DNA of 64,000 nucleotides from Methanovulcanius yangii (GTDB taxonomy: Archaea > Halobacteriota > Methanomicrobia > Methanomicrobiales > Methanomicrobiaceae). The notes beneath the pieces were generated by a model, which was not told where the DNA came from, made no database searches, and saw nothing but the letters and a program-made list of their open reading frames with translations. Location of the stretch: the NCBI RefSeq assembly GCF_018687785.1, contig NZ_LTBL01000001.1, forward strand, positions 1,727,780-1,791,779, written 5' to 3'. A program made the translations under genes and the position numbers. Shown piece by piece: positions 2,079-41,805 of the stretch (position 1 is its first letter; the number at the start of each line of letters is the position of its first letter).

Positions 2079-3302
2079 ATGAAAACCCGGGAAGAGCTGC
2101 AGGCCCGCCTCGCACGGGGCGAGGCGGAGGTCTGGACCGCGATGGAATTCAAAACCCGCATTCGTGAGGGGGATGTCCCGGGGGTGGATGAGGTTGATGT
2201 CGTCACCTGTGCAACCTTCGGGGTGATGTCCGGGACGGCGGCGGTGATGTGCGTGCCGGTCACGAAACCCGGCGTCTTCGAGCGGGCGGAGGCCGTCACC
2301 ATGGAAGGGGTGCCCTGTTATCCGGGTCCCTGTCCCAACGAGCGCCTCGGCCTCGTCGACCTTATGGTCTACGGGACCGCGAAGGCGTCGCCGCGGTATG
2401 GCGGGGGGCATCTCCTGCGGGATCTTGCCGACGGCAAGGAAGTGGAGGTGATCGTCGAGTCCGGCGGGAAGACCTACGAGCATATGACCCATATCGATGA
2501 GATCCCCTTTGCCCGGGTGATCACCACCCGGAGTGCCTTCAAAAACTATGCGGCATTCGTGAACCGCGGGCGTGAGGCCATCGATACGATATTTTCCGTA
2601 ACCCCACTCGCCGGCGAAACCTCGCAGGCCACCGTCTCCGGGTGCGGGGAGATAAATCCCCTTGCAAACGATCCATATCTGACGCACATCCGACCCGGCA
2701 CACCGCTGATGCTCAACGGCTCTGCGGGATATGTGATGGGCGAGGGGACACGCTCAAGTCCGGAAAAACCGAATATTGCGGCATTTGCCGATCTTGCCGG
2801 GATGGTCAGCGAGTTCATGGGTGGGTTTGTGACCTCCGCAGGCCCCGAATGCCTCACCTCGGTAGCCGTGCCGCTGCCCGTCCTTGACGATGCGGACATT
2901 GCCCGGCTCTCAATCCTCGACGAAGGATGCCTCCTGCCGGTGAGCGACATTGAAACCCGGACCCCCCTTGCGGAGACGACGTACGCCGATATCTGGCAGG
3001 GGACCGAGACGGCGGTGACGGTGCGTCCGGAACAGTGCCTCTTCTGTGGAACCTGCACCGCCGCGGAGGCATGTCCGACCCGGGCGATCATGATGGGAGG
3101 CGGTATCATGCATGCCCGGTGCGTCGCCTGCGGGACCTGTGTTTCCGCCTGTCCGAACGGCGTTTATTCGATGGAGATGGGGACGGTCCCTGTGGAGGGC
3201 GGCCGCGTGCCGGTGGCGCTTCGCCAGTCCGACCGGAACCGTGCAGAACGCATCTGTGCGTACCTGAAGGAGGAGATCCTTGCCGGGGTGTTTACACCAT
3301 GA
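2079..3302 (+). CDS. Methanogenesis marker protein 16 (DUF39 plus 2x[4Fe-4S]), likely CoM biosynthesis
   Basis: A 407-residue protein. The N-terminal three quarters match the DUF39 homocysteine-biosynthesis fold (motifs CATFGVMSG, GVPCYPGPCPNE, NPLANDPY, LNGSAGY). The C-terminus holds a two-cluster ferredoxin domain, with CxxCxxC-type motifs near residues 320-331 and 348-358. DUF39 proteins are known to put sulfide into aspartate semialdehyde to give homocysteine. The methanogen-specific ferredoxin-fused branch is methanogenesis marker 16. Its place directly before cysteate synthase and ComDE suggests the analogous sulfur insertion, from sulfoacetaldehyde to coenzyme M; that step is inference. 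I chose the ATG at 2079 over an upstream ATG at 2010 because a TATA-like element (2046-2059) lies 26-30 bases before it and homology begins there. Confidence 0.85.
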   Translation: MKTREELQARLARGEAEVWTAMEFKTRIREGDVPGVDEVDVVTCATFGVMSGTAAVMCVPVTKPGVFERAEAVTMEGVPCYPGPCPNERLGLVDLMVYGTAKASPRYGGGHLLRDLADGKEVEVIVESGGKTYEHMTHIDEIPFARVITTRSAFKNYAAFVNRGREAIDTIFSVTPLAGETSQATVSGCGEINPLANDPYLTHIRPGTPLMLNGSAGYVMGEGTRSSPEKPNIAAFADLAGMVSEFMGGFVTSAGPECLTSVAVPLPVLDDADIARLSILDEGCLLPVSDIETRTPLAETTYADIWQGTETAVTVRPEQCLFCGTCTAAEACPTRAIMMGGGIMHARCVACGTCVSACPNGVYSMEMGTVPVEGGRVPVALRQSDRNRAERICAYLKEEILAGVFTP

Positions 3303-4570
3303 ACCAGAAGTACCTCCTCCGCTGCCCCTCCTGCGGGATGTATATCCCCGACCGGTACACAAACACCTGCCCGGCCGGCTGCCCCGGCCTTATCCGGGCG
3401 GAGTACGCCGCCCGGTGCATCACCCCCCACCTTTTCCCGGGGATCTTTCGGTATGCCGACTGGCTGCCGGTGGTAGGTACGCTCCCCACCCATGCGGGGC
3501 CGCTCACCTACCGGTCGGAGGGCCTTGCCCGCGAGGCGGGCCTCGCAAATCTCTGGATCTGCTTCAACGGGTACTGGCCGGAGAAGAGGGCCCTGATTCG
3601 CACCTGTTCATTCAAGGAGCTCGAGGCATGGCCGACGATGCTGCGCCTGCAGGAGAAGGGTGCCGGCATCATGCAGGTCTCCTCGGCGGGGAACACGGGG
3701 CGGGCCTTCGCCGAGGTTTCGGCGCAGTGCAGCTATCCGCTCGTTCTCTCGGTGCCGGTCCGGGGGCTCGACCGTATCTGGACGACGCGCCCCGCGGAGC
3801 AGGTCTTCCTCGTCGCGGTGGAAGGGGATTATACCGATGCCATCACCTTCGGCAACGCGCTCTGCACCCTCCCCGGCCTTGTGCCGGAAGGCGGAGCAAA
3901 AAATCCCGCCCGGCGTGACGGCATGGGAACCGTCCTCCTCGACGGGACGCTCACCTGCGGGCGGCTTCCCGACTGGTATGTGCAGGCCGTCGGGAGCGGC
4001 ACCGGGGGCATCGCCGCCTGGGAGATGGCCGAACGCCTCCGCGGGGACGGACGCTGGGGAGAGAGGCTTCCCCGGCTTCTCCTCTCGCAGAATATTCCCT
4101 TCACCCCGATGGCGGACGCCTGGCGGGACGGCAGGCGGGACCTGACCCCCGCGGATTTCGAAGACGCAAAGTTGCGTATCGCGGAGGTCTGGGCCGATGT
4201 GCTGACGAACCGGAAACCCCCCTACGGTATCCCGGGGGGGCTTCGAGAGGCGCTTCTTGCAACGAACGGCGTCATGGATGCCGTCACCAACGCGGAGGCG
4301 CACGCGGCGGCCCGCCTCTTTGAGGAGGCTGAGGGGTGTGACCTCGACCCCGCGGCGGCCGTTGCGACCGCCTCGCTCCTGCGCAGCGCCGAAGAGGGAA
4401 TAATCGGGCCGGATGAGACGGTCCTCCTCAACATCACCGGCGGGGGGTATCAACGGGTAAAGGAGGACTACACCCTCCGGAGGGTCCGGCCTGCCTGCAC
4501 GGTGGCCGCCGGTGCCGGAGCGGCGTCAGTGGAGGAACAGATGGTGGAGTGGGTGAAGGATCATGCATGA
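3299..4570 (+). CDS. Cysteate synthase (O-phosphoserine + sulfite to L-cysteate)
   Basis: A 423-residue PLP enzyme of the threonine synthase fold. Residues 9-28 carry four cysteines (CPSC and CPAGC), and Lys106 in the segment TCSFKELEA is the likely PLP-binding lysine. The SSAGNTGRAF and GSGTGG segments fit phosphate-binding loops. Cysteate synthase (EC 2.5.1.76) starts the PEP-independent route to coenzyme M in Methanosarcinales and Methanomicrobiales; the neighbours on both sides support this assignment over threonine synthase. The start ATG overlaps the previous stop (ATGA), and the next gene starts 8 bases before this one ends, so translation of the three genes is coupled. Confidence 0.92.
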   Translation: MNQKYLLRCPSCGMYIPDRYTNTCPAGCPGLIRAEYAARCITPHLFPGIFRYADWLPVVGTLPTHAGPLTYRSEGLAREAGLANLWICFNGYWPEKRALIRTCSFKELEAWPTMLRLQEKGAGIMQVSSAGNTGRAFAEVSAQCSYPLVLSVPVRGLDRIWTTRPAEQVFLVAVEGDYTDAITFGNALCTLPGLVPEGGAKNPARRDGMGTVLLDGTLTCGRLPDWYVQAVGSGTGGIAAWEMAERLRGDGRWGERLPRLLLSQNIPFTPMADAWRDGRRDLTPADFEDAKLRIAEVWADVLTNRKPPYGIPGGLREALLATNGVMDAVTNAEAHAAARLFEEAEGCDLDPAAAVATASLLRSAEEGIIGPDETVLLNITGGGYQRVKEDYTLRRVRPACTVAAGAGAASVEEQMVEWVKDHA

Positions 4571-5672
4571 AGAAGCGCTGATTGCCGCGGTTCGGCGGGC
4601 GGGTGCGGAGGTGATGGCGACCCTCCCCTGCGACCGGACAAAGGATCTCTGCACCCTCATCCCGCGCCATTTCCGGGAGATCTCCCTCCTCCGGGAGGAG
4701 GACGGCGTAGGCCTCTGTGCCGGCCTTGCCCTAGCGGGCAGGCGCCCCGTGATGCACATCCAGTCCTCGGGGCTCGGGAACATGCTCAATGCCATCCTCA
4801 CCCTTCCCTCCCTCTACCGGCTCCCGCTCCCTGTGCTTGCGTCCTGGCGCGGCGTCTGGCGGGAGAAGATCGAGGCGCAGGTTCCGTTCAACAGCCGTCT
4901 TCCCGCCATCCTCGCGGCAGCGGGGATCGCCTGCACCGAGATTCACACACCCGACGACATCGCGCTTGCGGGGGAGGTTGTCGCCGACGCCTATGAAGCG
5001 GGGCGGCCGCATGTGGCCCTCATATCCCCCGCGGTCTGGGAGGGTGGGCCGTGTGAGACGGAGGCGGCGGCCTTTCCCCGGCGGGAACGTGAGATCGTCT
5101 GCAAGCTGCACCGGATCATCCGCCCGCCCGGCATGCGGCGGTACGATGCCATCGCCGCCGTCGCCCCCCATCTCGGGGATGCCCTCGCGGTGGCAAACCT
5201 CGGCGTCCCCTCCAAGGAGCTCTATGCCATCCGCGACCGCCCGGAGAACTTCTACATGCTCGGCAGCTATACGCAGGCGACGCCCATCGGCTTTGGCTGC
5301 GCCCTCGGGCAGGACCGTGACGTGGTCGTCTTCGACGGGGACGGCAGCCTCCTCGGGACGGCAATTCTCCCCGTCATAGCGGCGGAGGCCCCGGCAAACC
5401 TGACGATCATCGCTCTCGACAATGGCGCCTTCGGGTCCACGGGAAGCCAGATGACGCATGCATGGAGGGGTGCGGATCTCGAACTGATCGCACGCGGTGC
5501 CGGGTTCACCTCCACTACAAAGGTGCAGACGGCGGACGAGCTGGTGGCGGCGTATACGGCAGAGGAGAAAGGCCCGCGGTTCATTCATGTCGTCATCGCG
5601 CCGGGCAATGCGGATGTCCCGAATATCCCGCTCTCCGCGCTCGAAATACGGGAACGCTTCTGTGGGAACTGA
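4563..5672 (+). CDS. comDE: Sulfopyruvate decarboxylase, fused alpha and beta subunits (ComDE)
   Basis: A 369-residue thiamine-diphosphate enzyme. Residues 1-160 are the ComD-like PYR half (LPCDRTKDLC, a REEDGVGLCAGLALAG-type segment), and residues about 190-369 are the ComE-like half with the GDG...N motif for Mg-ThDP (FDGDGSLLG followed by LDNGAFGSTG). It decarboxylates sulfopyruvate to sulfoacetaldehyde (EC 4.1.1.79), the step after cysteate is deaminated. In Methanocaldococcus the halves are separate proteins; here they form one chain. It ends the coenzyme M operon and is followed by an oligo-T tract. Confidence 0.92.
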   Translation: MHEEALIAAVRRAGAEVMATLPCDRTKDLCTLIPRHFREISLLREEDGVGLCAGLALAGRRPVMHIQSSGLGNMLNAILTLPSLYRLPLPVLASWRGVWREKIEAQVPFNSRLPAILAAAGIACTEIHTPDDIALAGEVVADAYEAGRPHVALISPAVWEGGPCETEAAAFPRREREIVCKLHRIIRPPGMRRYDAIAAVAPHLGDALAVANLGVPSKELYAIRDRPENFYMLGSYTQATPIGFGCALGQDRDVVVFDGDGSLLGTAILPVIAAEAPANLTIIALDNGAFGSTGSQMTHAWRGADLELIARGAGFTSTTKVQTADELVAAYTAEEKGPRFIHVVIAPGNADVPNIPLSALEIRERFCGN

Positions 5673-5743: not shown

Positions 5744-6769
5744 ATGCTTTCCGGAACGGGGAGGAGAACCGGTGTTGTCGCGCTGGTGCTCGTCTGTGCA
5801 GCCCTTCTGTCTCTGGTCCTTGCGCTTAGCATCGGCCCGACGACGATCCCCGTCTCCTCCTTCCTTCCTTCGGATGTTTTCGGGGCCGTTTCGGCACTCC
5901 TCTCCGGCGGGGATGCGGCCCCCTTCTTTCCGGATGAAACCGCCGGACTTATCGTCTACTCCGTCCGTCTTCCCCGCGTCCTTGCCGCGTTTCTTGTCGG
6001 GGCCGGTCTTGCAGCCGCCGGAACAGCGATGCAGGGACTCTTCAGAAACTCGATGGCCGACCCGTATATCATCGGCACTTCCTCGGGGGCCGCTCTGGGA
6101 GCGGCGGTTGCGATTGTGTTCCTTGGCGGGTTGTTTCTCCCCGTATTTGCCTTTGTGGGTGCGACCGCGGCGACATTCCTCGTCTACGCCCTTGCGACGA
6201 GAAACGGACGGGCGCCGGTGGAGACGCTTCTTCTCACCGGGGTGGCCCTCTCCATGTTCTTCTCCGCCATCCTCTCCTTTCTCATGTACTCGGCGGGAAA
6301 GAGCCTCCACCAGATCATCTACTGGATGATGGGAGGGTTCTGGACCGTAGGGTGGGGGGATATCTCCCTTGCCGTGGTGATTGTGGCGGGGGGGATCATC
6401 CTCATCGCGTACGCAAAGGACCTCAATATACTCTCCCTCGGCGAGGAGGACGCCGTCCACCTCGGGGTGAATGTTGAGTCGTTCAAACGCATCCTCCTCT
6501 TCGTCTCTTCGTTTATCACCGGCATCGCCGTCGCCATTGCCGGGTCCATCGGGTTTATCGGCCTCATCACCCCCCACGTGATGCGGCTCATTGTAGGTCC
6601 CGATCACCGCATCCTCTTTCCGACCGCGATGGTGGCAGGCGGCATCTTCCTCCTCTGGGCCGACACGGTCACCCGGACGTTTATGGGGGACATGCCGGTC
6701 GGCGTCATCACCGCCTTCGTGGGTGCTCCGTTTTTCATCTTCCTCCTGCGCGGGAGGTCGAGAGTATGA
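5744..6769 (+). CDS. btuC: FecCD/BtuC-family ABC transporter permease
   Basis: A 341-residue inner-membrane permease with about ten hydrophobic segments and family motifs RLPRVLAAFLVGAGLAAAGTAMQGLFRN, GTSSGAALGA and GFIGLITPHVMR (given in shortened parts of the protein, residues about 65-90, 102-111 and 265-276). These belong to the BtuCD-F/FhuB/FecCD class, which moves corrinoids, siderophores or heme. The ATG at 5744 follows a TATA box at leaderless spacing; an upstream in-frame start at 5462 lies inside comDE and is rejected. The ATPase gene starts in a 4-base overlap with the stop. The downstream BtuF-like protein favours a corrinoid substrate (inference). Confidence 0.85.
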   Translation: MLSGTGRRTGVVALVLVCAALLSLVLALSIGPTTIPVSSFLPSDVFGAVSALLSGGDAAPFFPDETAGLIVYSVRLPRVLAAFLVGAGLAAAGTAMQGLFRNSMADPYIIGTSSGAALGAAVAIVFLGGLFLPVFAFVGATAATFLVYALATRNGRAPVETLLLTGVALSMFFSAILSFLMYSAGKSLHQIIYWMMGGFWTVGWGDISLAVVIVAGGIILIAYAKDLNILSLGEEDAVHLGVNVESFKRILLFVSSFITGIAVAIAGSIGFIGLITPHVMRLIVGPDHRILFPTAMVAGGIFLLWADTVTRTFMGDMPVGVITAFVGAPFFIFLLRGRSRV

Positions 6770-8013
6770 TACGGGCCGACCGTCTTGCTGCGGGCTACGG
6801 GGCCGAGGAGATCATCCGCGACATCTCCCTCGATGCCGCAGAGGGGGAGTTCATCGGGATCATCGGACCCAACGGTTCAGGGAAGACGACGCTCATCAAG
6901 GCGATGAGCAGGGTGCTTGCCGCACGGAGCGGGTCGATCATGATCGAAGGGCAGCTCCTGGAGGAATTCGGATCAAAGGAGCTCGCCCGGACGCTCGGGG
7001 TCGTCCCGCAGGAGACGGCGGTGAACTTCTCCTACACGGTCAGAGACATCGTGATGATGGGCAGGTTCCCCCACCAGACCCGGTTCTCCCGGGAGGGGCC
7101 GGAGGACTACCGTGTGATGGAGGAGGCGATGGCGCTCACCGGCATCGCCCATCTGGCCGACCGTCCGGTCACGGAGATCTCCGGGGGCGAGCGCCAGCGG
7201 GTGATCATCGCACGTGCACTCGCCCAGCAGCCCCGTTTCCTTCTTCTCGACGAGGCGACGGCTCATCTCGACATCAATCACCAGGTGGAGATTCTCTCGA
7301 TCATCCGCGGACTGGGGGGAGGGGTGACGAAGATAGGGGTCTTCCATGACCTGAACCTCGCCTCCGCCTACTGCGACCGGATCATCCTCATGGCGGGCGG
7401 CGAAGTCCGGGCCGTCGGCACCCCCGCGGCGGTCCTCACCCGGGAGAACCTGCGAAACCACTACGGTATCGACGCCCTCATCCAGACCCACCCGGTGACC
7501 GGCCGCCCGATGGTCCTCCCGCTCGAGGGAGCGGACCGGTCTTCCTCCCCGGGTTCCGATATCTCCGCGGCACCACGACGACGGATTCATCTGGTCTGCG
7601 GCGGCGGTTCGGGGGGAGGGCTCATGTACCGGTTCATCGGCGCGGGGTGCGAGGTGACGACCGGCATCCTCTGCGACGGCGACTCGGATGTCGCCACGGC
7701 TGCCGCCCTCGGCATCGACGTGCTCTGCATTCCCCCCTTCTCGCCGATAGGACCTGCCGAGACGGCCGCGCTCAGGGAGATGGTGGCGAGGGCCGATGTG
7801 GCGGTCGTCACCGCGATGCCGGTCGGGCCCGGAAATATCGCCAATTTTGAGGTGCTCTGCGATCAGGAGACGACCCCGGTGGTGATGTACATGCCGGAGG
7901 GCGGGGAGTTCACCGATTATACCGACGGGAGACTCGACGACGTCCTCAGGTGCATTGAAGAGAAGGGAGCGGTGCGGGTTGCACTGCCTGAGCGGATCCT
8001 CTCTTCATTGTGA
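6766..8013 (+). CDS. btuD: BtuD/FecE-type ABC ATPase with an extra C-terminal domain
   Basis: A 415-residue protein. Residues 1-250 form a standard ABC ATPase: Walker A GPNGSGKTT near residue 35, signature SGGERQR near 139, Walker B LLLDEATAHLD near 160, and the switch histidine in VFHDLNLAS. Residues about 265-415 form a further alpha/beta domain beginning HLVCGGGSGGGLMYRF, with no ABC motif. Similar extensions are seen on corrinoid/iron ATPases of methanogens; the domain looks like a small nucleotide- or ligand-sensing fold, but I cannot name it. Together with the permease this gives the core of the importer. Confidence 0.85.
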   Translation: MIRADRLAAGYGAEEIIRDISLDAAEGEFIGIIGPNGSGKTTLIKAMSRVLAARSGSIMIEGQLLEEFGSKELARTLGVVPQETAVNFSYTVRDIVMMGRFPHQTRFSREGPEDYRVMEEAMALTGIAHLADRPVTEISGGERQRVIIARALAQQPRFLLLDEATAHLDINHQVEILSIIRGLGGGVTKIGVFHDLNLASAYCDRIILMAGGEVRAVGTPAAVLTRENLRNHYGIDALIQTHPVTGRPMVLPLEGADRSSSPGSDISAAPRRRIHLVCGGGSGGGLMYRFIGAGCEVTTGILCDGDSDVATAAALGIDVLCIPPFSPIGPAETAALREMVARADVAVVTAMPVGPGNIANFEVLCDQETTPVVMYMPEGGEFTDYTDGRLDDVLRCIEEKGAVRVALPERILSSL

Positions 8014-8070
8014 TTCAGGTGAGGTTTTCGTGAGTGTTCATCCGCCACTCTCTCATAACATCAGAAAAAA

Positions 8071-8104
8071 TGATATAATTTAAATTATCTGGAGTTAACC
8101 AGAT
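8071..8104 (+). promoter_or_regulatory. Promoter and palindromic element of the exported corrinoid-capture genes
   Basis: ataatttaaattat (8075-8088) is a perfect 14-base palindrome that also serves as the TATA box. It is followed at once by ATCTGG-N6-CCAGAT (8087-8104), a perfect 6-base inverted repeat. Transcription would start near 8105, so the inverted repeat fills the space between TATA box and start site, where an archaeal repressor would block initiation. The start ATG is at 8135, preceded by gaggttggg. Confidence 0.5.
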
Positions 8105-8134: not shown

Positions 8135-11100
8135 ATGAAAAATAATATTATTTTATACGGTGTTGTTCTTCTTCTTGCCGCGGCTCTCCTGATGGCCCCG
8201 GCATCGGCGTTCAATTACACGGGGAATGTCACCCTGACGCAGGGCATGACCTTCTCTGTGGATGGCGGACTTCACACCGAGTCGAACACCTCGTCCCTCG
8301 GTGCACTCGATGTCTTTTCACAGACCTATGACAACGGGACGGGTTTTGATTATGTTGTGACCTATGACCCTTCAATGGGAGCGTTTATCGATGCAATCGG
8401 AGGCGTTTCGACCGCTCCGGGCTGGACGGAGTACTGGAATTTCTATGTCAACGGCAATGCGAGCGACGTCGGAGCCTCCACCTATGAATGTGCTGCGGGT
8501 GATGTGCTCGTCTTCGCATACGGGCCGTGGGGGACCAACGAGTCGACCGCGTCCGATGTGGTGAACATCACGGTCAGGGATATCAATCCCTTCCCGGGCT
8601 GGACGGGCGGCGTAACGATGGTGAGGGGAACGGCACTTGACATCGACGGCCACCGCGAGTCGAACACGACGGCCTTTGCGGCATTCCACGAGGCCTCCCT
8701 GTGCGGCAACTTCTCCTATGAATACTCGTATTATGACGGGGCCGGGTTCTTTGCCGGTCCGGTGGGTGATGTGGAAGCGACTGCCGGGTACGCGAAATAC
8801 TGGCAGTTCTGGTACAACGGGGCGTACTCGATGACCGGCATGTCCGGGGTGCAGGTGGAGACAGGCGATGTCGTCGAACTCCTCTACGGCCCGGACGGGA
8901 TGGCGCACGGTGATGCGGAATATGCCGTCTCCATCACCATCGACGACATGCTCGCCTTTCCGGGATGGGAGGGGACGGTCGCCCTCGACAACTCGACTTT
9001 CCTCTTCTCCCCCTCGGAAAACCCCTCTGCGGAGTACCTCGTCAACAATGATACGGGCCTCGGGGCCCTGATCCAGGCGTCGGAGGCCGGATTCCTTGAT
9101 TTCTATGCCAGTGATTCTGGATATGCTACCTACGGGACCTTCTCGCTCACTGGCATTGCCCATACCAACCAGACCGCGGGGTGGGAGTATTACTGGGCAA
9201 TATACATCAACGATGTCTTGGCCCCGATGGGCCTCGGCGGCAACAGGGTCGAAGCCGGTGATGTTGTCCGTTTCACTTATACCGAATGGGCAACCGGCAG
9301 CGACCTTGTCCACGTGAATATCACGGTCGGCGATGTTGCCGGAACGGCGTCTTCGGCCGGACCGGCAGAGGGCACCGGGCCGAATACCGCCACCATCCGC
9401 TGGCAGGCGGAGGTGGCCGAGTCGCCGGACGGATCACCCCTCCTCTATGACGGAAAGGTCTACATCGCAACCTGGCCCGATATGTTCTTCTCCGAGGCAG
9501 ACCAGGAGATGTACCTCTACTGCTATGACGCGGGCACGGGGGCTCTTGCCTGGAAGAACACGCTCGCCGACGGGTACGGATCGGTCGCCTCCCTTGCCGT
9601 CGGCGCCGGTAAAATATTTGCCCGGGGAACGAATGGCGTCCTCTATGCCGTCGATGCCGGTTCCGGTACGACGGTATGGAGTTCTCCGCTCGACGACGCC
9701 GCAGCGGTCATTCCGTGGTCACAGGTGAACGCCGGTCCGTGTGTATGGAACGACCGCCTCTTCGTCCTCTCCACACTGAACGGCACGATGAACGTCTTCA
9801 CTCTCGACGGGGCCCTGATGTATCAACAGGAGACCGGCGGGGCCATCGAGTATTTCACCACTCCGGTCGGCAACAGTGATACGGTCTACTTCGCCGGCAA
9901 CGGGACGCACACGCTCTATGCCATCGATGACCTTACCTACCAGGAGCGCTGGAACATCACGACCACGGAGCTCATCCGGTCCTCCCCCGTATGTGGGGCC
10001 GGGATAGTCTACTTCTCCACCTATGATTCGCTCGTCGCGGTCAGTGCCGTGGATGGCTCCTCCGTCTGGTCGGTGCCGATCGGTGGCACGACAGGGACCC
10101 CTGCCCTCCGGGACGGACATCTCTATGTGGGAGAGACCGATGGTCTCCACTGCTACGATGCCGCCACCGGCGCCGAAGCATGGCACTATGCCGCCGGGAA
10201 GGTGAGTGTTTCGCCTGCAACAGACACGGACAACGTCTACTTTGCGACGAGCGACGCAGCAGGCACTGTCTATGCCCTCGATGGAGGGACGGGCGACGAG
10301 GTATGGCACTACACGCAGACCGCTCCCGATGACGGGAACTGGGCGTCGTTCTACTCCTCCTCCCCCGCAACGGCCGATGGCCGCCTGTATATCGGCGGTG
10401 AATATTACAACACCGTCTACTGCTTCGGGCCTGCCCTGCCCGGTGTGCCCACCGGTGGTGATGACGGTGACGACGACGGCCCCGCCCCTGTGCCGGTACC
10501 CGTTCCCACCGTGCCGCTGACGAAACTGACCCTCACTCCCGGCACCTTTTCCGTGGAAGGCGCAAGCGGGAAGACCTACAACGTAAGTGCCACCACCGCA
10601 CTCGGTGTCCTCCATGCGGCCGGACTCTCCTTCGGGGTCGATGACGATTTCTACACCGAATATGGCTCGCTCTTCGTCGATGAGATTGGCGGTCTGGCAA
10701 ACAGCGGATCGTCTGGGTGGATGTATACGGTAAACGGCGCCAGTCCGGGCACCGGTGCAAATACGTACACCCTCACAACCGGGGACGAGGTGATCTGGTA
10801 CTGGAGCGAGTCGATGTCCAGCACCCCGGCCGAGTCGGACCATGTCTACGGGTATGCGGTGACGGTTACCGCCACCACCGGCATGACGGGGGACGGCGAC
10901 GGAACGGATGACGGCACCGGCGATAGCCCTACGATGACCACCTCGTCAGTCGGGCGGATCAGCACGATCGGCCTGCCCGAAGGGGCCTCTCTCACCATCG
11001 ACCAGAACCGGATGATGCTGAGCATCGACATGGCGGCGGCCAGAGCAGCGGGTGAGAACGTGATGATGGACAAAAACACCCTGATCATCACGAGAGGCGA

Positions 11101-11785
11101 TGCCGTACTCTCCATCCGGTTCATTGACTTCAAAGAGATCCGCGGCATCACCTCCGGTCCGATCGAATCAATAACAGTCAGGACGATGCCCATAGATAAT
11201 GAATTGCCGGGTGCAGGGGAGGTCCTGGTATCGGTGGGTGCAGAGCTCTACTCCGTGCCGTTCGGTGCCCGGATTCTCACCTCCGTCAGCACCGGCCCGT
11301 CCCTTGCGGAGACCCGGGAAATGCTTGACGGCCTCGCGGGTGCACCATACCCGGCGGCCGTCGCGTATGCCATTGATGTGGATACCATGAACCTTGTCAA
11401 CGGCGAGGATATCGGCACGGCATCAATGATGATTGTGATGGATGCGGCGTGGGTGAACGACCACGGAGGAGCTAAGAGCCTTCGCATCGTACATATCGGA
11501 AACGATGGGAATGTCGAGGTCATCGTTCCCACGGTCAGATTCGAAGGCACCACTGTCTCCATCGAAGCCGATTCCCCGGCGGGCTTCTCCTCCTTCGTGC
11601 TCATTGCGGCAGGGGAGCCTCCGGCAGGAAATGTCCTGTCCGATGCAGAGCAGACGCCTGAATCGACATCTGCCGGGGAGAACACCGAACCGGCACAGAC
11701 CCCGTTCCCTGCGCTTGCCGGCCTTGCCGGTGCAGGATTGGCTCTCTCATGGTGGAGTGGAAGATATGGTAGCAAAAAGAACTAA
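8135..11785 (+). CDS. Giant exported protein: four DUF4430 domains plus PQQ-type beta-propeller
   Basis: A 1216-residue exported protein. A signal peptide (1-25) is followed by three DUF4430-like domains (about 25-405, each with a GD.V.f.Y element), then a PQQ/BamB-like beta-propeller (about 415-775, repeats such as LYCYDAGTGALAW and VYALDGGTGDEVW). A fourth, textbook DUF4430 domain follows (about 800-920, with GWMYTVNG and GDEVIWYWSES), then a region resembling the PGF-pre-PGF domain (ending FSSFVLIAAGE) and a C-terminal hydrophobic tail with a basic end. DUF4430 is the beta domain of transcobalamin and intrinsic factor. Lying after BtuC/BtuD-like genes and before a BtuF-like gene, it is probably a surface protein that captures corrinoids (inference). 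The next gene overlaps its end by 20 bases. Confidence 0.8.
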   Translation: MKNNIILYGVVLLLAAALLMAPASAFNYTGNVTLTQGMTFSVDGGLHTESNTSSLGALDVFSQTYDNGTGFDYVVTYDPSMGAFIDAIGGVSTAPGWTEYWNFYVNGNASDVGASTYECAAGDVLVFAYGPWGTNESTASDVVNITVRDINPFPGWTGGVTMVRGTALDIDGHRESNTTAFAAFHEASLCGNFSYEYSYYDGAGFFAGPVGDVEATAGYAKYWQFWYNGAYSMTGMSGVQVETGDVVELLYGPDGMAHGDAEYAVSITIDDMLAFPGWEGTVALDNSTFLFSPSENPSAEYLVNNDTGLGALIQASEAGFLDFYASDSGYATYGTFSLTGIAHTNQTAGWEYYWAIYINDVLAPMGLGGNRVEAGDVVRFTYTEWATGSDLVHVNITVGDVAGTASSAGPAEGTGPNTATIRWQAEVAESPDGSPLLYDGKVYIATWPDMFFSEADQEMYLYCYDAGTGALAWKNTLADGYGSVASLAVGAGKIFARGTNGVLYAVDAGSGTTVWSSPLDDAAAVIPWSQVNAGPCVWNDRLFVLSTLNGTMNVFTLDGALMYQQETGGAIEYFTTPVGNSDTVYFAGNGTHTLYAIDDLTYQERWNITTTELIRSSPVCGAGIVYFSTYDSLVAVSAVDGSSVWSVPIGGTTGTPALRDGHLYVGETDGLHCYDAATGAEAWHYAAGKVSVSPATDTDNVYFATSDAAGTVYALDGGTGDEVWHYTQTAPDDGNWASFYSSSPATADGRLYIGGEYYNTVYCFGPALPGVPTGGDDGDDDGPAPVPVPVPTVPLTKLTLTPGTFSVEGASGKTYNVSATTALGVLHAAGLSFGVDDDFYTEYGSLFVDEIGGLANSGSSGWMYTVNGASPGTGANTYTLTTGDEVIWYWSESMSSTPAESDHVYGYAVTVTATTGMTGDGDGTDDGTGDSPTMTTSSVGRISTIGLPEGASLTIDQNRMMLSIDMAAARAAGENVMMDKNTLIITRGDAVLSIRFIDFKEIRGITSGPIESITVRTMPIDNELPGAGEVLVSVGAELYSVPFGARILTSVSTGPSLAETREMLDGLAGAPYPAAVAYAIDVDTMNLVNGEDIGTASMMIVMDAAWVNDHGGAKSLRIVHIGNDGNVEVIVPTVRFEGTTVSIEADSPAGFSSFVLIAAGEPPAGNVLSDAEQTPESTSAGENTEPAQTPFPALAGLAGAGLALSWWSGRYGSKKN

Positions 11786-13772
11786 TTTCATCTTTTTTTC
11801 GATAGTGCTGCTCTGCAGCATCGCGTGCACCGCAGGAGTGGGAGCGTACCCGCTTTCGCCCGGTGATTCGCAGATGGAATCGGCCCTCGCCTACATGCAG
11901 TCCTGCCAGCGGGACGACGGCGGGTTCGGCGAAGACGGACGGGAGACGAGCCCTGCGACCTCGACGTGGGTGATCATGGCCATCGTCGCCGCCGGCGAGG
12001 ATCCGGATACCTGGACGAAAAACGGCGTCTCGGCGATTGATTACCTTCATGCGGTTGCCGCCCCGGAGACCGTCGCCATCGACGGCACGGCCGAGACCGC
12101 GAAGATGATCCTCACCATCCTTGCGGTCGGGGAAGACCCGTACACCTTTGAGGGAACCGACTTCGTTGCTTCTCTCAAGGCGAAGCAGGAGCCGTCGGGC
12201 TCGTTCGGGGACCACATCTATACGACGAACTGGGCGGTCATGGCGCTTGCGGCTGCAGGAGAGGACACCTCCGCGGCGACGACATGGCTCACCTCCCGGC
12301 AGAATGCTGACGGCGGGTTCGGGTGGACGCCCGGCGCCGAGAGCGACTGCGACGACACCGCCTCGGCGGTCGAGGCCCTGATTGCGGCCGGAACGCCCCG
12401 GTCGGCGCCCGTGATCACGAATGCGGTCGGGTTCTTCCGTGATGTCCAGTGCGCAAACGGCGGCTTCAATTACGGCGGTTCGAGTGCGGCAAACACCGCC
12501 TCGGACGCCTGGGTGATACAGGCCCTCGTTGCGGCAGGCGAGAACCCGGCCACATGGACGAAAGAGGGGGCAACCCCCGTCTCCCACCTTCTTTCGGCCC
12601 AGGCGGGAGAGGGGTATTTCAAGTGGACCCCGGTCCTGACGGACAACCCCTGCCGGATGACGGCCTCCGCCGTCCCCGCCCTCCTCGGGCACCCGTATCC
12701 CGTTCTGCCGGGCGCTGGTATGTCAGCGGCGTCAACCGGCAGTGCAATATCTCCGGCGGCGACCGGAGCGGCAGTGAATCTCTCCTCGCCGTCGCCGGTC
12801 CCAACCTCCGCGGTGCCGGCCGGCGGGCCCGTCACGGTGACCGATGACTTCGGCAGGACCGTCACCGTCCAGGGCGTTCCGCAGCGGATCGTCTCTCTTG
12901 CTCCGTCGAACACCGAGATCGTCTATGCCGTCGGTGCGGGCGATCGCGTCGTCGGGGTGACCGACTACTGCAACTACCCGGCGGCAACGGCGGATGTCGA
13001 GAAGGTCGGCGGGTACAGCAGCGTCAACATCGAGAAGGTGGTTGCTGCACAGCCCGACCTCGTCCTCGCGGCGCTCGGCAATAGCGAGGAGGTCGTCAAC
13101 TACATCGAGGGTCTGGGCCTCACCGTCGTCTCCCTCAACCCCGCCTCCATACAGGGTGTCGTCGATGATGTCCGGCTCGTCGGCACCGTGACCGGGAATG
13201 CACAGGAGGCAGAAGCCATCGCATCTTCCATGGAGGCGAGGATTGCGGCAGTACGAACGAAGGCGGCTGCTGCCTCCAGCGAGCCCACCGTCGCCCACGT
13301 CGTCTGGTATGACCCCATCTGGGTGAGCGGGTCGGAAACCTTCCAGGACGAGATGTTCGAGATCGCCCATGCAAAGAATGCCTTCCCGAACGTCGAGGGA
13401 TGGCAGGTCGTCGGGCTTGAGGACTTCATCACGACCAACCCCGACATCATCCTCGTCAACTCGGGCAGCGGTATGGGGGACGGCGGATATGATCTCATCT
13501 ATTCGTATATGATGGAGGAACCACGGCTCCAGGGGGTCACCGCCATCCGTGAAGGCCGGGTGTATATCGCCGAGTCGGACATGATCGACCGTGGCGGCCC
13601 GCGGATCGTCGATGCCCTCGAAGAGGTCGCGGCCGACATCCATCCGGAAATATTCGGTGCCGCCTCGACACCGACGCCCGAGACGACACAGTCACCGCTG
13701 CCGCTCGCCGGCGCCCTCGGCGGGTGTATCGCCATGGGCATCCTTGGTCTCCGGGGAAGAGGGAGGGCATGA
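11766..13772 (+). CDS. Alpha/alpha-toroid domain fused to a BtuF-like corrinoid-binding protein
   Basis: A 668-residue exported protein. A signal peptide (about 1-28) is followed by an alpha/alpha toroid of squalene-cyclase/prenyltransferase type (about 33-330) with repeats marked QxxDGGFG (CQRDDGGFG, RQNADGGFG, VQCANGGFN) and W.I.AL.AAGE. After a Ser/Thr/Pro linker comes a complete BtuF/FecB-type binding domain (about 350-640, starting VTVTDDFGRTV, with PQRIVSLAPSNTEI). A tail with TQSPLPLAGALGG and a basic end follows. The toroid is also the N-terminal fold of intrinsic factor and transcobalamin. The start ATG at 11766 lies inside the end of the previous gene, and the stop overlaps the next start. 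It would be the binding component of the upstream importer, anchored at the cell surface. Confidence 0.82.
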   Translation: MVAKRTNFIFFSIVLLCSIACTAGVGAYPLSPGDSQMESALAYMQSCQRDDGGFGEDGRETSPATSTWVIMAIVAAGEDPDTWTKNGVSAIDYLHAVAAPETVAIDGTAETAKMILTILAVGEDPYTFEGTDFVASLKAKQEPSGSFGDHIYTTNWAVMALAAAGEDTSAATTWLTSRQNADGGFGWTPGAESDCDDTASAVEALIAAGTPRSAPVITNAVGFFRDVQCANGGFNYGGSSAANTASDAWVIQALVAAGENPATWTKEGATPVSHLLSAQAGEGYFKWTPVLTDNPCRMTASAVPALLGHPYPVLPGAGMSAASTGSAISPAATGAAVNLSSPSPVPTSAVPAGGPVTVTDDFGRTVTVQGVPQRIVSLAPSNTEIVYAVGAGDRVVGVTDYCNYPAATADVEKVGGYSSVNIEKVVAAQPDLVLAALGNSEEVVNYIEGLGLTVVSLNPASIQGVVDDVRLVGTVTGNAQEAEAIASSMEARIAAVRTKAAAASSEPTVAHVVWYDPIWVSGSETFQDEMFEIAHAKNAFPNVEGWQVVGLEDFITTNPDIILVNSGSGMGDGGYDLIYSYMMEEPRLQGVTAIREGRVYIAESDMIDRGGPRIVDALEEVAADIHPEIFGAASTPTPETTQSPLPLAGALGGCIAMGILGLRGRGRA

Positions 13773-14875
13773 AGGCGGCCTCTCTGCTCGTAATCTCCCT
13801 CCTCCTGCTCGTCCTCTGGGCACCGGTCGCCGCAGCGGCCGACGGTCCCCTCTGGACGCATACGATCGGGGGAACGGGTGTCCGTTCGGTTGCCATCTCC
13901 GGCGACGGAACGACGGTCAGTGCGGCAGGGGAGGACGGTTTGGTCGTCCTCTCCGCCGACGGAGTGGTGCAGTGGAGCTCTCCGGTGCGGATGTATGATG
14001 TGGCGCTCCCCGACGGCGCCGAACCGGTCCTTGCCGGCGGTTTCGACATCCAGGTATACGACGCCGACGGGACGGAGTATGGGGGCAGAAAAGTCTTCAA
14101 TGTGATCCGGAGCATCGCGGTGTCACCTGACGGGACAACCTATGTCGCATCGACCGATGGGTCGACCGTCGTCGAGGGCAGTCTCACGGAGGATACCGCG
14201 ACCGAGAGGGAAACGGGCGAGGATTACTTTGCGGTATCGCTCGTTCCCGGGACGGAGTATCTCGCCGCCGGTACCGAGAGTGGTTCGGTGATTCTCACCT
14301 CCCGCGGCGGGGGAGCCGCCTTCTGGGAGTACCGGGCATCACCAAAAGCAGTGGCCGACATCGCCTCTTCCGACGGGGCCCGGACCATCGTGGCGTGTAC
14401 CGGCGATGGCATGGTACACACCCTCTCCCGGACGGGGCTTCTCCTCTGGTCCGCCGCCGTCCTGCGTCCTGAAGGGGTTGCGGTAAGTCGTGACGGAGAC
14501 CGTATCGCCGTCTGTGGTGCGGAGGGCTTTGCCCTCTTTGACCGGACGGGAACAGAACTGGTCTCCGTCAGCCTCCCTGCCGGATGCACGGGAATCGCCC
14601 TGAATGGCGACGCTACCATGGCTGCCGTAACAACCACCTCTGATGTCTCCCTCTATGCGCTGGATGGAAACTGCGTGGCGGAGGGAGACGTGATACCCGC
14701 CACGGGAGCAGGCGGCACTGCCGTCGAGGTGGAGCAGACGCCTCGTGCCTCTCCGGCCACACCGGAGCCGCCGGCCGGTGGAGAGGCGGCCACGCCGACC
14801 GGGCAGGCGGCTCCCGCGGCACTGGTCGCGGCAGCAGGACTGATAGGTACGACGCCTCTTCTCCGCAGAAAATAG
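13769..14875 (+). CDS. Exported beta-propeller (WD40/PQQ-like) protein
   Basis: A 368-residue protein with a clear signal peptide (MKAASLLVIS... to about residue 23). Six or seven short blade repeats follow, marked by VAISGDGTTVSAAGEDG, IAVSPDGTTYVAS and VAVSRDGDRIAVCG. A Pro/Thr/Ala linker leads to a hydrophobic segment ending LLRRK, fitting a surface-anchored protein. The ATG overlaps the previous stop (ATGA), so it is the last gene of the corrinoid-type cluster. Its own ligand is unknown; it may be a scaffold for the other two exported proteins. Confidence 0.72.
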   Translation: MKAASLLVISLLLLVLWAPVAAAADGPLWTHTIGGTGVRSVAISGDGTTVSAAGEDGLVVLSADGVVQWSSPVRMYDVALPDGAEPVLAGGFDIQVYDADGTEYGGRKVFNVIRSIAVSPDGTTYVASTDGSTVVEGSLTEDTATERETGEDYFAVSLVPGTEYLAAGTESGSVILTSRGGGAAFWEYRASPKAVADIASSDGARTIVACTGDGMVHTLSRTGLLLWSAAVLRPEGVAVSRDGDRIAVCGAEGFALFDRTGTELVSVSLPAGCTGIALNGDATMAAVTTTSDVSLYALDGNCVAEGDVIPATGAGGTAVEVEQTPRASPATPEPPAGGEAATPTGQAAPAALVAAAGLIGTTPLLRRK

Positions 14876-37907: not shown

Positions 37908-38033
37908 GATGGGGTGCCCCCCCGGATATCCCGGGTTGGCCGGATGATGCCGGGGCGCTTTCAGCCCTTGGAAATGTCCGGCATTGAAGGCAGGGAAGAA
38001 TGCATATCCGTTATCAGCGCCAAGATATGGGTA

Positions 38034-38648
38034 ATGAAGGATATTGACCAGATGTTTCAGGAAGCGGTCGTATTTCACGGACATTCCTGCCCCGGACTTG
38101 CAATCGGAGTCCGTGTGGCCGTTATCGCACGCGAGGTGCTCACTGCCGGAAGGGCCGAGGACGAAGACCTCGTCTGCATCGCGGAGACCGATGCCTGTGG
38201 CGTGGATGGTATCCAGTTCGTCTCAGGGTGTACGGCAGGGAAAGGAAACCTGATTATTCATAACTACGGAAAGCAGGCGTTCTCCTTTTTCAACCGGGCC
38301 ACCGGGAAGGCCGTCCGCGTGGCGGTGCGTCCCGAGGCTGCCATGGATGCGAGGGACCCGGAAGGCTGGGCGGCACGGATGGCGGTCTTTGCCGGGACTG
38401 CAACCCCCGAACAGCTGGCGGCCGCCGAGGCATCCAAGGAGAGGATGATCGACGTTTATCTCCATGGCCCGCAGGAGGAGGTCTACTCCGTCACCATGAT
38501 TCCCGCACCGGAGATCCCGAAGGCGAAGGTACAGGTCTCCGTCATCTGTGCCGGCTGCGGTGAACCGGTGATGCCCGCACGGGCCGTCGAACGGGACGGA
38601 AAACACTTCTGTGTTCCGTGCAGTGAAGCGGACCATCTCAAAGAATAA
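38034..38648 (+). CDS. FwdE-family protein with C-terminal zinc ribbon
   Basis: A 204-residue protein. Residues 1-150 match the formylmethanofuran dehydrogenase subunit E family: VFHGHSCPGLAIGVR, CIAETDACGVDGIQ, SGCTAGKGNL. The C-terminus has a four-cysteine ribbon (ICAGCGEPV...FCVPC, about residues 168-198). FwdE-like proteins occur with formylmethanofuran dehydrogenase and also alone, with suggested metal-binding or redox roles. No fwd genes lie nearby, so a direct role in CO2 reduction is uncertain. I chose the ATG at 38034; 40 upstream codons in the same frame show no homology. Confidence 0.8.
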   Translation: MKDIDQMFQEAVVFHGHSCPGLAIGVRVAVIAREVLTAGRAEDEDLVCIAETDACGVDGIQFVSGCTAGKGNLIIHNYGKQAFSFFNRATGKAVRVAVRPEAAMDARDPEGWAARMAVFAGTATPEQLAAAEASKERMIDVYLHGPQEEVYSVTMIPAPEIPKAKVQVSVICAGCGEPVMPARAVERDGKHFCVPCSEADHLKE

Positions 38649-38711
38649 CTATTTTTTCGGCCCTTCAGGTGGGTTCATCCAACGAACCCGGTCGGAAGCG
38701 GCGGCGTCTTT

Positions 38712-39467
38712 TCAGCAGACCGGGACGACGACCGGTCCGCTCTTCAGGGTCTCTACCTCGACCTCCACCTCGTAGACCTCGCGAATGGTCTCGGAGGTGA
38801 TGATCTCCGGTCCGCCGCTGGCATATATCGCATTGTTTTTGAGCAGGATGAACCGATCGGAGAACCGAAGCGCCGTATTGATGTCATGCATCGTCATGAC
38901 GGCCGCAACCGTATGGCCCCGCACCACCTCGCAGACGATCTTCAGGATCTCCTGCTGGTTTTTCAGGTCGAGGCTGCTCGTCGGTTCGTCGAGGAGGAGG
39001 AGTTTCGGTTCCTGAACGATGGCACGGGCGATGGAGATCTTCTGGAGTTCGCCGCCGCTCATCTCGTCGATGTAGCGCATCGCAAGATCCTGCATATTGA
39101 GGCGGCGGATGACCGCCTCCACCATCCGCAGGTCCTTTTCGGAGGTGTTCCAGGTGATGTGGGGGCGCCTGCCGAGGAGGATGGCGTCATAGGCGGTCAG
39201 GCGTCCCTTTTCGCAGTGCTGCGGCACGTATCCCACCTTCTTTGCGACCTCGGGGAGGCTCACCTTCATGATGTCCTCGTTCTCCACGAGGATGGAGCCT
39301 GCCTTCGGATGGTGGATGCGGTTGATGCACTTGAGAAGCGTGGTCTTGCCGACGCCGTTCGGGCCGAGGATGGTGAGCACCTCATTCGGCCGGACGGAAA
39401 ATGAGACGTCCTCGAGGACTTTTCTGCTGTTGTACTGGAATTCTACGCCATTGATGTCGAGGATCAT
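38712..39467 (-). CDS. ABC transporter ATPase, FecE type
   Basis: A 251-residue ABC ATPase with Walker A GPNGVGKTT (about residue 35), Q-loop VPQHCEKG, signature MSGGELQK, Walker B LLLDEPTSSLD and the switch His in MTMHDIN. It is the last gene of a minus-strand operon (binding protein, permease, ATPase), and the permease stop overlaps its start by four bases. The family imports iron-siderophore, heme or corrinoid complexes; the substrate here is not identifiable. Confidence 0.9.
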   Translation of the reverse strand: MILDINGVEFQYNSRKVLEDVSFSVRPNEVLTILGPNGVGKTTLLKCINRIHHPKAGSILVENEDIMKVSLPEVAKKVGYVPQHCEKGRLTAYDAILLGRRPHITWNTSEKDLRMVEAVIRRLNMQDLAMRYIDEMSGGELQKISIARAIVQEPKLLLLDEPTSSLDLKNQQEILKIVCEVVRGHTVAAVMTMHDINTALRFSDRFILLKNNAIYASGGPEIITSETIREVYEVEVEVETLKSGPVVVPVC

Positions 39468-40534
39468 CTGGTATACCCCCGTATGAGGAGATAGATGAAG
39501 ACCGGCGCCCCCAGAAATGCCATCAGGATGGCCACCGGCAGGATATGCGGTGCGAGGATGAGCCGTGCGGCGGTGTCCGCTGCGAGGAGGAGGAGGGCCC
39601 CGGTGACGATCGTTCCCGGAATGAGGAAGCGGTGGTCGTCACCGATGAGCCGGCGGGTCATGTGGGGGCAGACGAGGCCCACGAATCCGATGACGCCCAA
39701 AAAGGAGATGATGACCGCCGATAAAAAGGAGGAGACGACCATGCCCACGAGGCGGATGCGCTCGACATTCACCCCGAGCCCCTTCGCCGTCTCGTCTCCG
39801 GCATCGATTGCATTGTAGTTCCAGGAATGGTAGAGGAAGTAGATGGAACATATGGCGGTAACGACCGCCATGAAGATCAGTTCGCCCCAGTCCGCCCGTC
39901 CCACGTCGCCGAACGTCCAGAAGACGACGGCCGCAAGCTGCACGTCATCGGCGAAGTACTGGAGAAACATCGTCCCTGCGGTAAAGAGCGAGCCGATGGC
40001 AATCCCCGCGAGCACCATCACCTCGGGGGAGGCCCCACGGAGCTTCGAGATCAGGAGGATGATTGCCGTTGCAATCAGGCAGAAGACGAAGGCGACGATG
40101 GTGGTGATGTACGGGTTGTTGAGGACGATGGCATCGGCACCGGTACTGTGCATCGTGCCGGTCCCCAGGACGATCACGGAGAAGGCGGCTCCGAATGCCG
40201 CGGCATTGGAGATACCAAGGGTGTAGGGCGACCCGAGGGGGTTTCTGAGGATGGACTGCATCGCAACACCGGCAACGGCGAGCCCCGCTCCGGCAACGAT
40301 CCCCGCGAGCGCCTGGGGGAGCCGGATGTTCCATATGATCGTCTGCCACTGGGGCGATGCGTGCTGCCCGAGAAGGGTCTGGATCACCTCCAGCGGAGGT
40401 ATGCCCACGGCCCCCACCGAGATCGAGTACACGAGGAGTACAAAGAGGAGGGCAATACCGGTGAGGATTATGGAAATCTTCCTTCCGGTATATTTCAGAT
40501 ATTCTTCCGGGACGGTGCCGTCATTCAGGTGCAT
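39464..40534 (-). CDS. ABC transporter permease, FecCD type
   Basis: A 356-residue permease with about nine or ten membrane segments and the family motifs RLPQALAGIVAGAGLAVAGVAMQSILRNPLG (split across the membrane, about residues 68-98), GISNAAAFGA and GFVGLVCPHMTR. A gaggaga Shine-Dalgarno precedes the ATG. It lies between the binding protein gene (63 bases upstream) and its ATPase. It is the only permease for two homologous binding proteins in this region. Confidence 0.9.
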   Translation of the reverse strand: MHLNDGTVPEEYLKYTGRKISIILTGIALLFVLLVYSISVGAVGIPPLEVIQTLLGQHASPQWQTIIWNIRLPQALAGIVAGAGLAVAGVAMQSILRNPLGSPYTLGISNAAAFGAAFSVIVLGTGTMHSTGADAIVLNNPYITTIVAFVFCLIATAIILLISKLRGASPEVMVLAGIAIGSLFTAGTMFLQYFADDVQLAAVVFWTFGDVGRADWGELIFMAVVTAICSIYFLYHSWNYNAIDAGDETAKGLGVNVERIRLVGMVVSSFLSAVIISFLGVIGFVGLVCPHMTRRLIGDDHRFLIPGTIVTGALLLLAADTAARLILAPHILPVAILMAFLGAPVFIYLLIRGYTR

Positions 40535-40597
40535 GTGTTCTCTCCTCGTGAGTGGGTGCTGACTTTCATGGCGGGATGCGATGATTTTTGTTTGAAA

Positions 40598-41737
40598 TCA
40601 GATCTCCAGCCGGGTGAAGGCAAGGTCTGCAAACTCTGCGCTCATCTCGTCGAAGACGGGCTCGCCGACGAGGAACGTATAAATCTCATCTGCCTTTCCT
40701 GTGGGGTCGATGTCCGCAAAACGGCCCGGATAGAGGACGCTGCCGATGTAATAGGCATCCGCAAGGATGCTCCCGTGATTCTGCGTGTAGCAGTTGTAGG
40801 GCAGGACGCCATAGACCTCGCCCGCCTGAACGGCGCCGAGTGCCTGGTAGGACGGGTCGTCCGCAAGTTCATCGATGGCGGTCGGGTCTGTCTGGAGCGT
40901 GAAGAGGTCAACGAAGATGACGTCGGGGTTGTATTCGACGATCTTCTCCTTGGCAACATCCGCATGCTCGGTTCCCAGTTCGGCCACGACGTTGTCCGCG
41001 TTCACAAAGATGAACGGCGGATAGGCGGGTTCGGTGGACTGGAATCCGTGCGGACCGCGGTAGGCGATGCCGCCCACATAGGTCGTCGGCTGCTCATCCT
41101 CCGGGACGTCGGCGGTTCTCGCGTTCAGATCCGCAATCGCCGCATCGAAGTAGGCGATCACCTCTTCCGCCCGGTCTTCCTTACCCATGACCTCCCCCAT
41201 CAGACGGAGGGATGCGTCCATGTCGGCCCGGTATGCGGAGAGCGATCCGTAGTTAAGGGCGATGACGGGAATGCCGGTCTTCTCCGAGAGCTCATCCGCC
41301 TCCTCGGGAGAGATGAGCTGGGTCTTGAAGATCACCTGTGGGTTGGCCGCGACGATCTTCTCCGGATCGTCCTTGCCGCGGAACTCTCCGATCAAGGGAT
41401 AGTCCTTAAACTGGGGGTTTGCAAGGGCATACGGCCGGGCATCAAATATGGTCTCCTCGATCTCGATGCTGTCGACCCCGACCACCGCATCCTGCGCCTG
41501 CAGGTAGGTGAGGTACCTCAGGCACCCGGAGTTGGAGCAGACGACCCGGTCGGGGCTCTTCGGAACGGTGACCTCCCTTCCGAGGCCGTCGGTGACGGTG
41601 ATCATCTCATGTGTTCCGGTCTCCTGTCCGGTGCCGGCCTGCGCACTGGTGCCCGTATCGGTGCAGCCGCACGCCATCGCGATGACCAGGCATGCCCCGA
41701 TGGCAAGAAGGCTGATTATCTGTCGGTTTGCTATCAC
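40598..41737 (-). CDS. ABC transporter substrate-binding lipoprotein 1 (FecB/BtuF type)
   Basis: A 379-residue protein with a short signal and lipobox-like sequence (VIAMACGC), then a helical-backbone binding fold: ITVTDGLGREVTVPKSPDRVV, CLRYLTYL, YPLIGEFRGKDDPEKI, PDVIFVD. I moved the start to the GTG at 41737: an aggtggt Shine-Dalgarno lies six bases before it and it aligns with the start of the paralogue at 43389. The ATG at 41818 would put 27 polar residues before the signal peptide. It heads the operon with permease and ATPase. Confidence 0.88.
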   Translation of the reverse strand: MIANRQIISLLAIGACLVIAMACGCTDTGTSAQAGTGQETGTHEMITVTDGLGREVTVPKSPDRVVCSNSGCLRYLTYLQAQDAVVGVDSIEIEETIFDARPYALANPQFKDYPLIGEFRGKDDPEKIVAANPQVIFKTQLISPEEADELSEKTGIPVIALNYGSLSAYRADMDASLRLMGEVMGKEDRAEEVIAYFDAAIADLNARTADVPEDEQPTTYVGGIAYRGPHGFQSTEPAYPPFIFVNADNVVAELGTEHADVAKEKIVEYNPDVIFVDLFTLQTDPTAIDELADDPSYQALGAVQAGEVYGVLPYNCYTQNHGSILADAYYIGSVLYPGRFADIDPTGKADEIYTFLVGEPVFDEMSAEFADLAFTRLEI

Positions 41738-41791
41738 GAACGTACCACCTTTCGTTCTCGAATAGTGGGCGGGGCTGATATTAACATTTTT

Positions 41792-41805
41792 CGTATTCGT
41801 ATTAT
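41792..41805 (-). promoter_or_regulatory. ATAATACGAATACG element at the promoter of binding protein 1
   Basis: On the minus strand this 14-mer follows an A/T-rich TATA-like stretch (about 41829-41845). Related sequences, GTAATACGAACTTG and ATCATACGAATATG, sit at the same place in front of the CbiM-type gene and of binding protein 2. A common metal-responsive regulator is plausible. Confidence 0.4.

Follow-up and report, generated by a model that had tools for sequence, protein, structure and literature searches.

The genome of the archaeon Methanovulcanius yangii (order Methanomicrobiales; RefSeq assembly GCF_018687785.1) carries five consecutive plus-strand genes on contig NZ_LTBL01000001.1 for a probable corrinoid importer and three proteins with export signals, and we analyzed them within a stretch of 64,000 nucleotides (positions 1,727,780 to 1,791,779 of the forward strand; hereafter the window, in whose numbering all positions are given). 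The first two genes are btuC (5744-6769), for a FecCD-family permease, and btuD (6766-8013), for an ATPase with an extra C-terminal domain. They are followed by P0001 (8135-11785; 1216 amino acid [aa] residues), P0002 (11766-13772; 668 aa), and P0003 (13769-14875). An earlier note on this DNA, made without database searches, had placed P0001 and P0002 at these positions, which are right, and had described them as overlapping genes for exported proteins next to BtuC- and BtuD-like genes. The overlap is 20 nt, btuC and btuD lie directly upstream, and the same linkage was found in relatives. The btuC/btuD and P0002/P0003 pairs each overlap as ATGA. The gap of 121 bp between btuD and P0001 holds an AT-rich, TATA-like stretch at approximately 8070-8090, judged by eye, and P0001-P0003 may therefore have their own promoter. 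A check for a riboswitch gave no Rfam match within the window. P0001, P0002, and P0003 alike have a signal-like helix at the N terminus and a hydrophobic anchor with a basic tail at the C terminus, features that support the export of all three proteins and their anchoring in the membrane.

P0001 consists of a signal peptide, three DUF4430 domains, a PQQ-type β-propeller, a fourth DUF4430 domain, a β-rich domain that is common to relatives, and a C-terminal membrane anchor. In a hidden Markov model (HMM) search, the protein gave four PF14478 (DUF4430) matches (whole-protein E 1.4e-39, 134.8 bits), all of which pass the Pfam cut-off of 23.8 bits singly or with their neighbors, and the four domains that had been read from motifs alone were thus confirmed. 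Domains 1 (8213-8584; 51.4 bits; alignment A4) and 3 (8960-9340; 36.6 bits) flank the weakest, domain 2 (8591-8944), which scored 23.7 bits by itself and 23.9 bits with its neighbors. Domain 4 (10535-10909; 55.4 bits) has a GWMYxVN...GDEVxWYxS motif that is also present in the aligned toroid-fused DUF4430 domains of Archaeoglobaceae, and a phylogenetic tree groups it with the clade labeled "DUF4430 followed by P1mid." A profile scan showed that these four are the only DUF4430 domains of the genome. The propeller (9425-10459; PF13360, PQQ_2, E 4.4e-41) lies between domains 3 and 4, and its relatives were matched in most DUF4430 loci. This propeller had been overlooked at first reading. The third exported protein, P0003, is a WD40/PQQ-like β-propeller (PF00400, E 2.8e-8) with a C-terminal anchor. 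When the DUF4430 profile was compared with Protein Data Bank (PDB) sequences, the best matches were human haptocorrin (4kki, E 2.3e-4) and transcobalamin-2 (5no0, E 0.015), followed by a small bacterial protein (3u7z). Domain 4 also aligns with the DUF4430 domain of a protein from Archaeoglobus sp. JdFR-37 (L133, 762 aa), whose predicted structure has strands at residues 116-124, 128-132, and 138-142, a helix at 146-157, and then a hairpin of strands 161-166 and 169-175, the hairpin that defines the transcobalamin-like clade.

P0002 is an exported fusion of an α6/α6 toroid and a BtuF-type class III substrate-binding domain, with a C-terminal membrane anchor. The toroid (11850-12731; 15-member alignment A1) was matched by PF13243 (E 3.4e-14) and PF00432 (E 1.3e-12), and the BtuF domain (12834-13661) by PF01497 (Peripla_BP_2, E 8.7e-36). 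An AlphaFold2 model built from 51 aligned rows (predicted local distance difference test [pLDDT] 88, predicted template modeling score [pTM] 0.81) has a toroid of 12 helices at residues 35-306 followed by a BtuF fold, with low confidence for the linker at residues 321-343; Pfam matches and model therefore agree on the fusion that the earlier note had described. The BtuF domain aligned with BtuF of Escherichia coli (1n2z; VIA Z 27.0, 242 residues, 2.1 Å) and Vibrio cholerae (5ysc; VIA Z 27.1), and the toroid with squalene-hopene cyclase (VIA Z 25.7, 269 residues, 3.0 Å). Substrate-binding proteins took up the fold-search matches listed for P0002, and the absence of animal B12 carriers from its toroid matches carries no meaning. 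In the L133 model (pLDDT 87), an N-terminal β domain, the DUF4430 β-grasp, and a β-sandwich precede a toroid and an anchor, and this toroid aligned with squalene-hopene cyclase (Z 25.7), intrinsic factor (Z 21.6 and 21.3), and transcobalamin (Z 21.3, 270 residues, 19% identity). A toroid fold in common says nothing of function by itself.

A survey for these domains next to btuCD, which the earlier note had proposed, found them together in relatives, and the structural models contain both folds; neither of the two outcomes that the note had named as refuting its idea was seen. The toroid-BtuF fusion was present in 46 of the 150 genomes of the order, and DUF4430 was found in 41 of these 46 genomes versus 16 of the 104 without the fusion (Fisher p 3e-18, for counts that share ancestry and with phylogeny ignored). 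The nearest DUF4430 lay 151-1637 bp from the fusion (median approximately 1.0 kb; 32 genomes), and it adjoined the fusion in all 20 loci fetched by genome. Three of the five fusion genomes without DUF4430 (G094, G098, and G140) belong to genus g21, with Methanocorpusculum loci, where some DUF4430 domains are divergent (45-46 bits with the model built here; L147-L149), and another, G128, is a partial contig. When 84,980 named genomes were scanned with the toroid alignment, 54 loci were obtained, nearly all of them in Methanomicrobiales and Archaeoglobales; DUF4430 was found in 52, and the other two (L119 and L143) lie on contigs that start just before the toroid. The domain maps of these loci rest on HMMs built from the proteins of the window itself. 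A locus filed as Bacteroidaceae (L155; a metagenome-assembled genome from yak cecum) with archaeal PQQ, DUF4430, and toroid genes was set aside as probable Methanocorpusculum contamination. Chance co-location of DUF4430 and toroid-BtuF was rejected on the basis of these counts and of the alternative fusions described below.

Genes that fuse in varied combinations usually act together. Here the fusions of the same modules differ by lineage, which is the chief new argument that DUF4430, toroid, and BtuF function jointly. In Methanomicrobiales, a PQQ/DUF4430 protein is followed in most loci by toroid-BtuF, with a P0003-type propeller conserved downstream in many. Some of these loci (L070, L076-L079, and L083) have a plain BtuF in addition, a pattern that would follow if the toroid form had been added as an arm for capture; where the module is missing (L084-L095), the locus is a plain BtuC-BtuD-BtuF. 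In Archaeoglobaceae, the PQQ/DUF4430 protein is followed by one open reading frame with an N-terminal DUF4430 and a C-terminal toroid, then by a plain BtuF and often BtuC, so that the DUF4430-toroid association proposed earlier is found within a single polypeptide; the homologues in this family end in a PGF motif, which we take to be typical of archaeosortase substrates. In family f10, PQQ(-DUF4430), DUF4430, toroid, BtuF, and BtuC are consecutive genes (L193 and L202), the first two being one protein in L201, and L200 is cut at its 5' end. Family f22 has a toroid beside DUF4430, or a toroid-first protein of 1831-1861 aa with DUF4430 after it (L190 and L191), and no BtuF nearby.

Two further kinds of protein were observed in this survey. 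A 1185-aa open reading frame combines toroid, BtuF, and a P0003-type propeller (L074, 8921-12475, and L109, 9488-13042, which are the same Methanoculleus UBA430 locus); this triple fusion stands unless an assembly error or read-through removed a gene boundary. Other genomes of the phylum encode proteins of 2000-3200 aa with a divergent toroid and PQQ propellers (L195, L196, L198, L203, and L204), with BtuF within a few kb in L195, L203, and L204.

On this evidence, P0001-P0003 are likely to form a membrane-anchored module for corrinoid capture that is joined to an archaeal BtuCDF importer. The DUF4430 domains of P0001, as transcobalamin-type β-grasp lids, and the toroid of P0002 would act as separate partners that capture a corrinoid at or under the surface layer (S-layer). 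The captured corrinoid would then pass within one molecule from the toroid to the BtuF domain, a hand-off made possible by the covalent tether between the two, and the BtuF domain would dock on BtuCD for ATP-driven import; the propellers of P0001 and P0003 would be accessory capture or scaffold parts. More specifically, the system may be a transcobalamin split in trans, in which the DUF4430 lids on one protein close over a corrinoid in the BtuF-tethered toroid of another in a capture-delivery relay to BtuCD, a proposal that we hold tentatively and rate a little short of an even chance. The DUF4430-toroid sandwich, the hand-off and its order, the affinity, what the propellers do, and why DUF4430 occurs in several copies per protein are points that we infer.

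The animal carriers transcobalamin, intrinsic factor, and haptocorrin resemble this system in their DUF4430 sequence, which is nearest in haptocorrin and transcobalamin-2, and in the alignment of their toroids with the Archaeoglobus model. However, they have toroid and then DUF4430 on one chain, whereas the window splits these domains over two anchored proteins, Archaeoglobaceae have the reversed order, and only the large f22 proteins are toroid-first; in addition, the toroid of the window is fused to BtuF. The window system thus fails two tested features of transcobalamin, membership of PF01122 and a single chain, but may work like one. Corrinoid uptake could also proceed without a two-domain sandwich, if DUF4430 and toroid each bound a corrinoid or a protein partner separately, or if a propeller were the main binder. 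The placement of the two domains on different proteins, with four DUF4430s to one toroid, fits this alternative, as does the propeller beside DUF4430 in most loci, because the propeller protein BtuG, a surface B12 lipoprotein of Bacteroides, has femtomolar affinity for B12 (PMC6143338). We nevertheless consider it unlikely, since DUF4430 and toroid are fused in Archaeoglobaceae, as in bacteria and animals (PMC1796856), and the BtuG entry 3DSM was absent from the matches of P0001 to PDB sequences (E <= 1; propellers diverge fast). The parallel with BtuG is drawn for function: both are exported β-propellers in a B12 transport locus, but those of the window are of PQQ/WD40 type, and the system has no outer membrane or BtuB.

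The cargo of the importer is probably a corrinoid. BtuC (PF01032, E 7.7e-88) and BtuD (PF00005, E 3e-33) had as top NCBIfam models the vitamin B12 permease BtuC (351 bits; cut-off 461) and the corrinoid ABC transporter ATPase PRK09536 (353.6 bits; cut-off 537), respectively; B12/corrinoid models ranked second for the BtuF domain, and all of these scores were under the cut-offs. Permease, ATPase, and PF01497 binding domain all lie in one cluster, and its BtuC, BtuD, and BtuF-fold domain (Z 27) are those of BtuCDF from E. coli and Halobacterium-type archaea, from which it differs by the N-terminal toroid on BtuF and by the DUF4430 and propeller partners. The inference of a corrinoid rests on cbiZ, the gene for adenosylcobinamide amidohydrolase, because orthologous BtuCDF operons carry it. 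Although no cbiZ adjoins the window locus, it is present in 145 of the 150 genomes of the order, and in six of them it comes directly after btuF in btuC-btuD-btuF-cbiZ clusters. In the clusters that were compared with the window proteins, BtuC is 55-57% identical, their plain BtuFs are 45-55% identical to the BtuF domain, and BtuD of one cluster (L212) is 45% identical, values that assign the BtuCDF of the window to the cbiZ-linked corrinoid clade. By contrast, the second FecCD transporter of the window (38712-43389) is only approximately 35% (permease) and 25-26% (binding protein) identical to the cbiZ-cluster proteins and closer to the other transporter of a cbiZ-cluster genome (52-68%), and its permease is 35% identical to the window BtuC. 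The extra domain of BtuD (residues approximately 270-415; 7570-8013), which has no Pfam match, is found on corrinoid BtuDs of Methanomicrobiales, including those of cbiZ operons, and on some BtuDs of Archaeoglobaceae, and it is absent from the ATPase of this second transporter.

It is quite improbable, in comparison with these results, that this class III importer carries another cargo, such as heme, a siderophore, F430 or another tetrapyrrole, or an isoprenoid, and that the Btu labels are only nearest matches. Heme and siderophore binders do tie with BtuF as structural matches of the BtuF domain, and archaea with these proteins often make corrinoids; the cbiZ-linked operons in the same BtuCDF subfamily, the clear separation from the second FecCD transporter, and the nearness of DUF4430 to haptocorrin and transcobalamin argue the other way. 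Burroughs et al. (2007; PMC1796856), who defined the transcobalamin-like SLBB clade that matches DUF4430, likewise proposed a different metabolite for the archaeal members and did not mention BtuF. Their account covers bacterial fusions of toroid and SLBB in either order, fusions with propellers, and an Archaeoglobus member, and it predicts B12 scavenging with CbiO/CbiQ transporters for prokaryotic DUF4430/SLBB-toroid proteins (PMC1796856). Their proteins, like those of the window, are exported, combine DUF4430 with toroid or propeller, and lie near transporter genes, but those transporters are of CbiO/CbiQ type, whereas here BtuCDF and toroid-BtuF fusions are found. The idea of B12 scavenging by DUF4430/toroid proteins is therefore not wholly new. 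We found no description of a toroid-BtuF fusion in the open-access papers searched, and the novelty appears to lie in the BtuF fusion and in the modular operon of archaea.

Several observations weigh against the capture module and the split transcobalamin. PF01122 (Cobalamin_bind) had no match in the M. yangii genome up to E 10 and none among the A1 members; its best score was 11.6 bits (E 0.1; cut-off 25) in an Archaeoglobaceae genome, which ruled out the toroid as a member of that family. The A1 profile matched cyclases, prenyltransferases, complement-type proteins, and a few other toroid domains in the PDB (E <= 1), with no transcobalamin or intrinsic factor, and the toroid is by sequence nearer to terpene cyclases than to transcobalamin. 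Of the transcobalamin-like toroid suggested in the earlier note, the α6/α6 fold thus stands, and the family membership and closest relatives do not. One toroid repeat (12340-12365) has a DxD[D/N]T motif that lines up with the catalytic DxDD motif of drimenyl diphosphate synthase (acid Asp303): all 75 close toroids keep DxD, and 8 of the 75 have N for the last D. The motif may represent a helix cap left over from cyclases, provide polar contacts to corrin amides, or reflect activity. In the L133 model (pTM 0.62), the placement of DUF4430 relative to the toroid mouth is tentative. The fetched stretches of two loci, L194 and the archaeoglobal L126, hold DUF4430-toroid but no BtuF, and surface proteins with up to six DUF4430 repeats occur without toroid or Btu genes nearby (L096-L101), so that DUF4430 alone is no marker of corrinoid uptake. 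Finally, the genome itself has cbiZ and cbiC, from which corrinoid synthesis by the host is probable, with import probably as a supplement to it; no CbiC match was obtained in two module-bearing f10 genomes (G153 and G241), both of which are incomplete.

It is very improbable that the toroid is an enzyme, whether an exported one of class II terpene-cyclase type or one with the corrinoid or a lipid as substrate: squalene-hopene cyclase and drimenyl diphosphate synthase are its nearest relatives in sequence and fold and share its motif, but it is exported, single, fused to BtuF or DUF4430, and has Asn for the third Asp in some members, and toroid-fold repeats of non-enzymes have similar helix caps.

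Directly upstream of btuC (3284-5672) are genes for cysteate synthase and a fused two-subunit sulfopyruvate decarboxylase of coenzyme M biosynthesis, a notable neighborhood in that methyl transfer to coenzyme M is B12-dependent. The second iron-complex-type ABC transporter, within 37914-43389, includes two tandem paralogous binding proteins on the minus strand (40598-41818 and 42244-43389) and lies beside an FmdE-like zinc-ribbon gene (37914-38648; named by eye).

If this is indeed a transcobalamin split in trans, the two domain types of animal B12 carriers would be interchangeable parts of an archaeal BtuCDF importer, and the gene order would show steps between separate genes and fusion. The module would give S-layer archaea a concrete path to scavenge the scarce corrinoids needed by methyl-transfer enzymes. 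The findings also give genomic support in archaea for the view that DUF4430-toroid proteins bind corrinoids and not, as was suggested earlier, a distinct metabolite, and they suggest what a domain still called DUF4430 may do. Both domain types occur as separate genes, in fusions of either order, and joined to BtuF, a range that bears on how intrinsic factor and transcobalamin originated.

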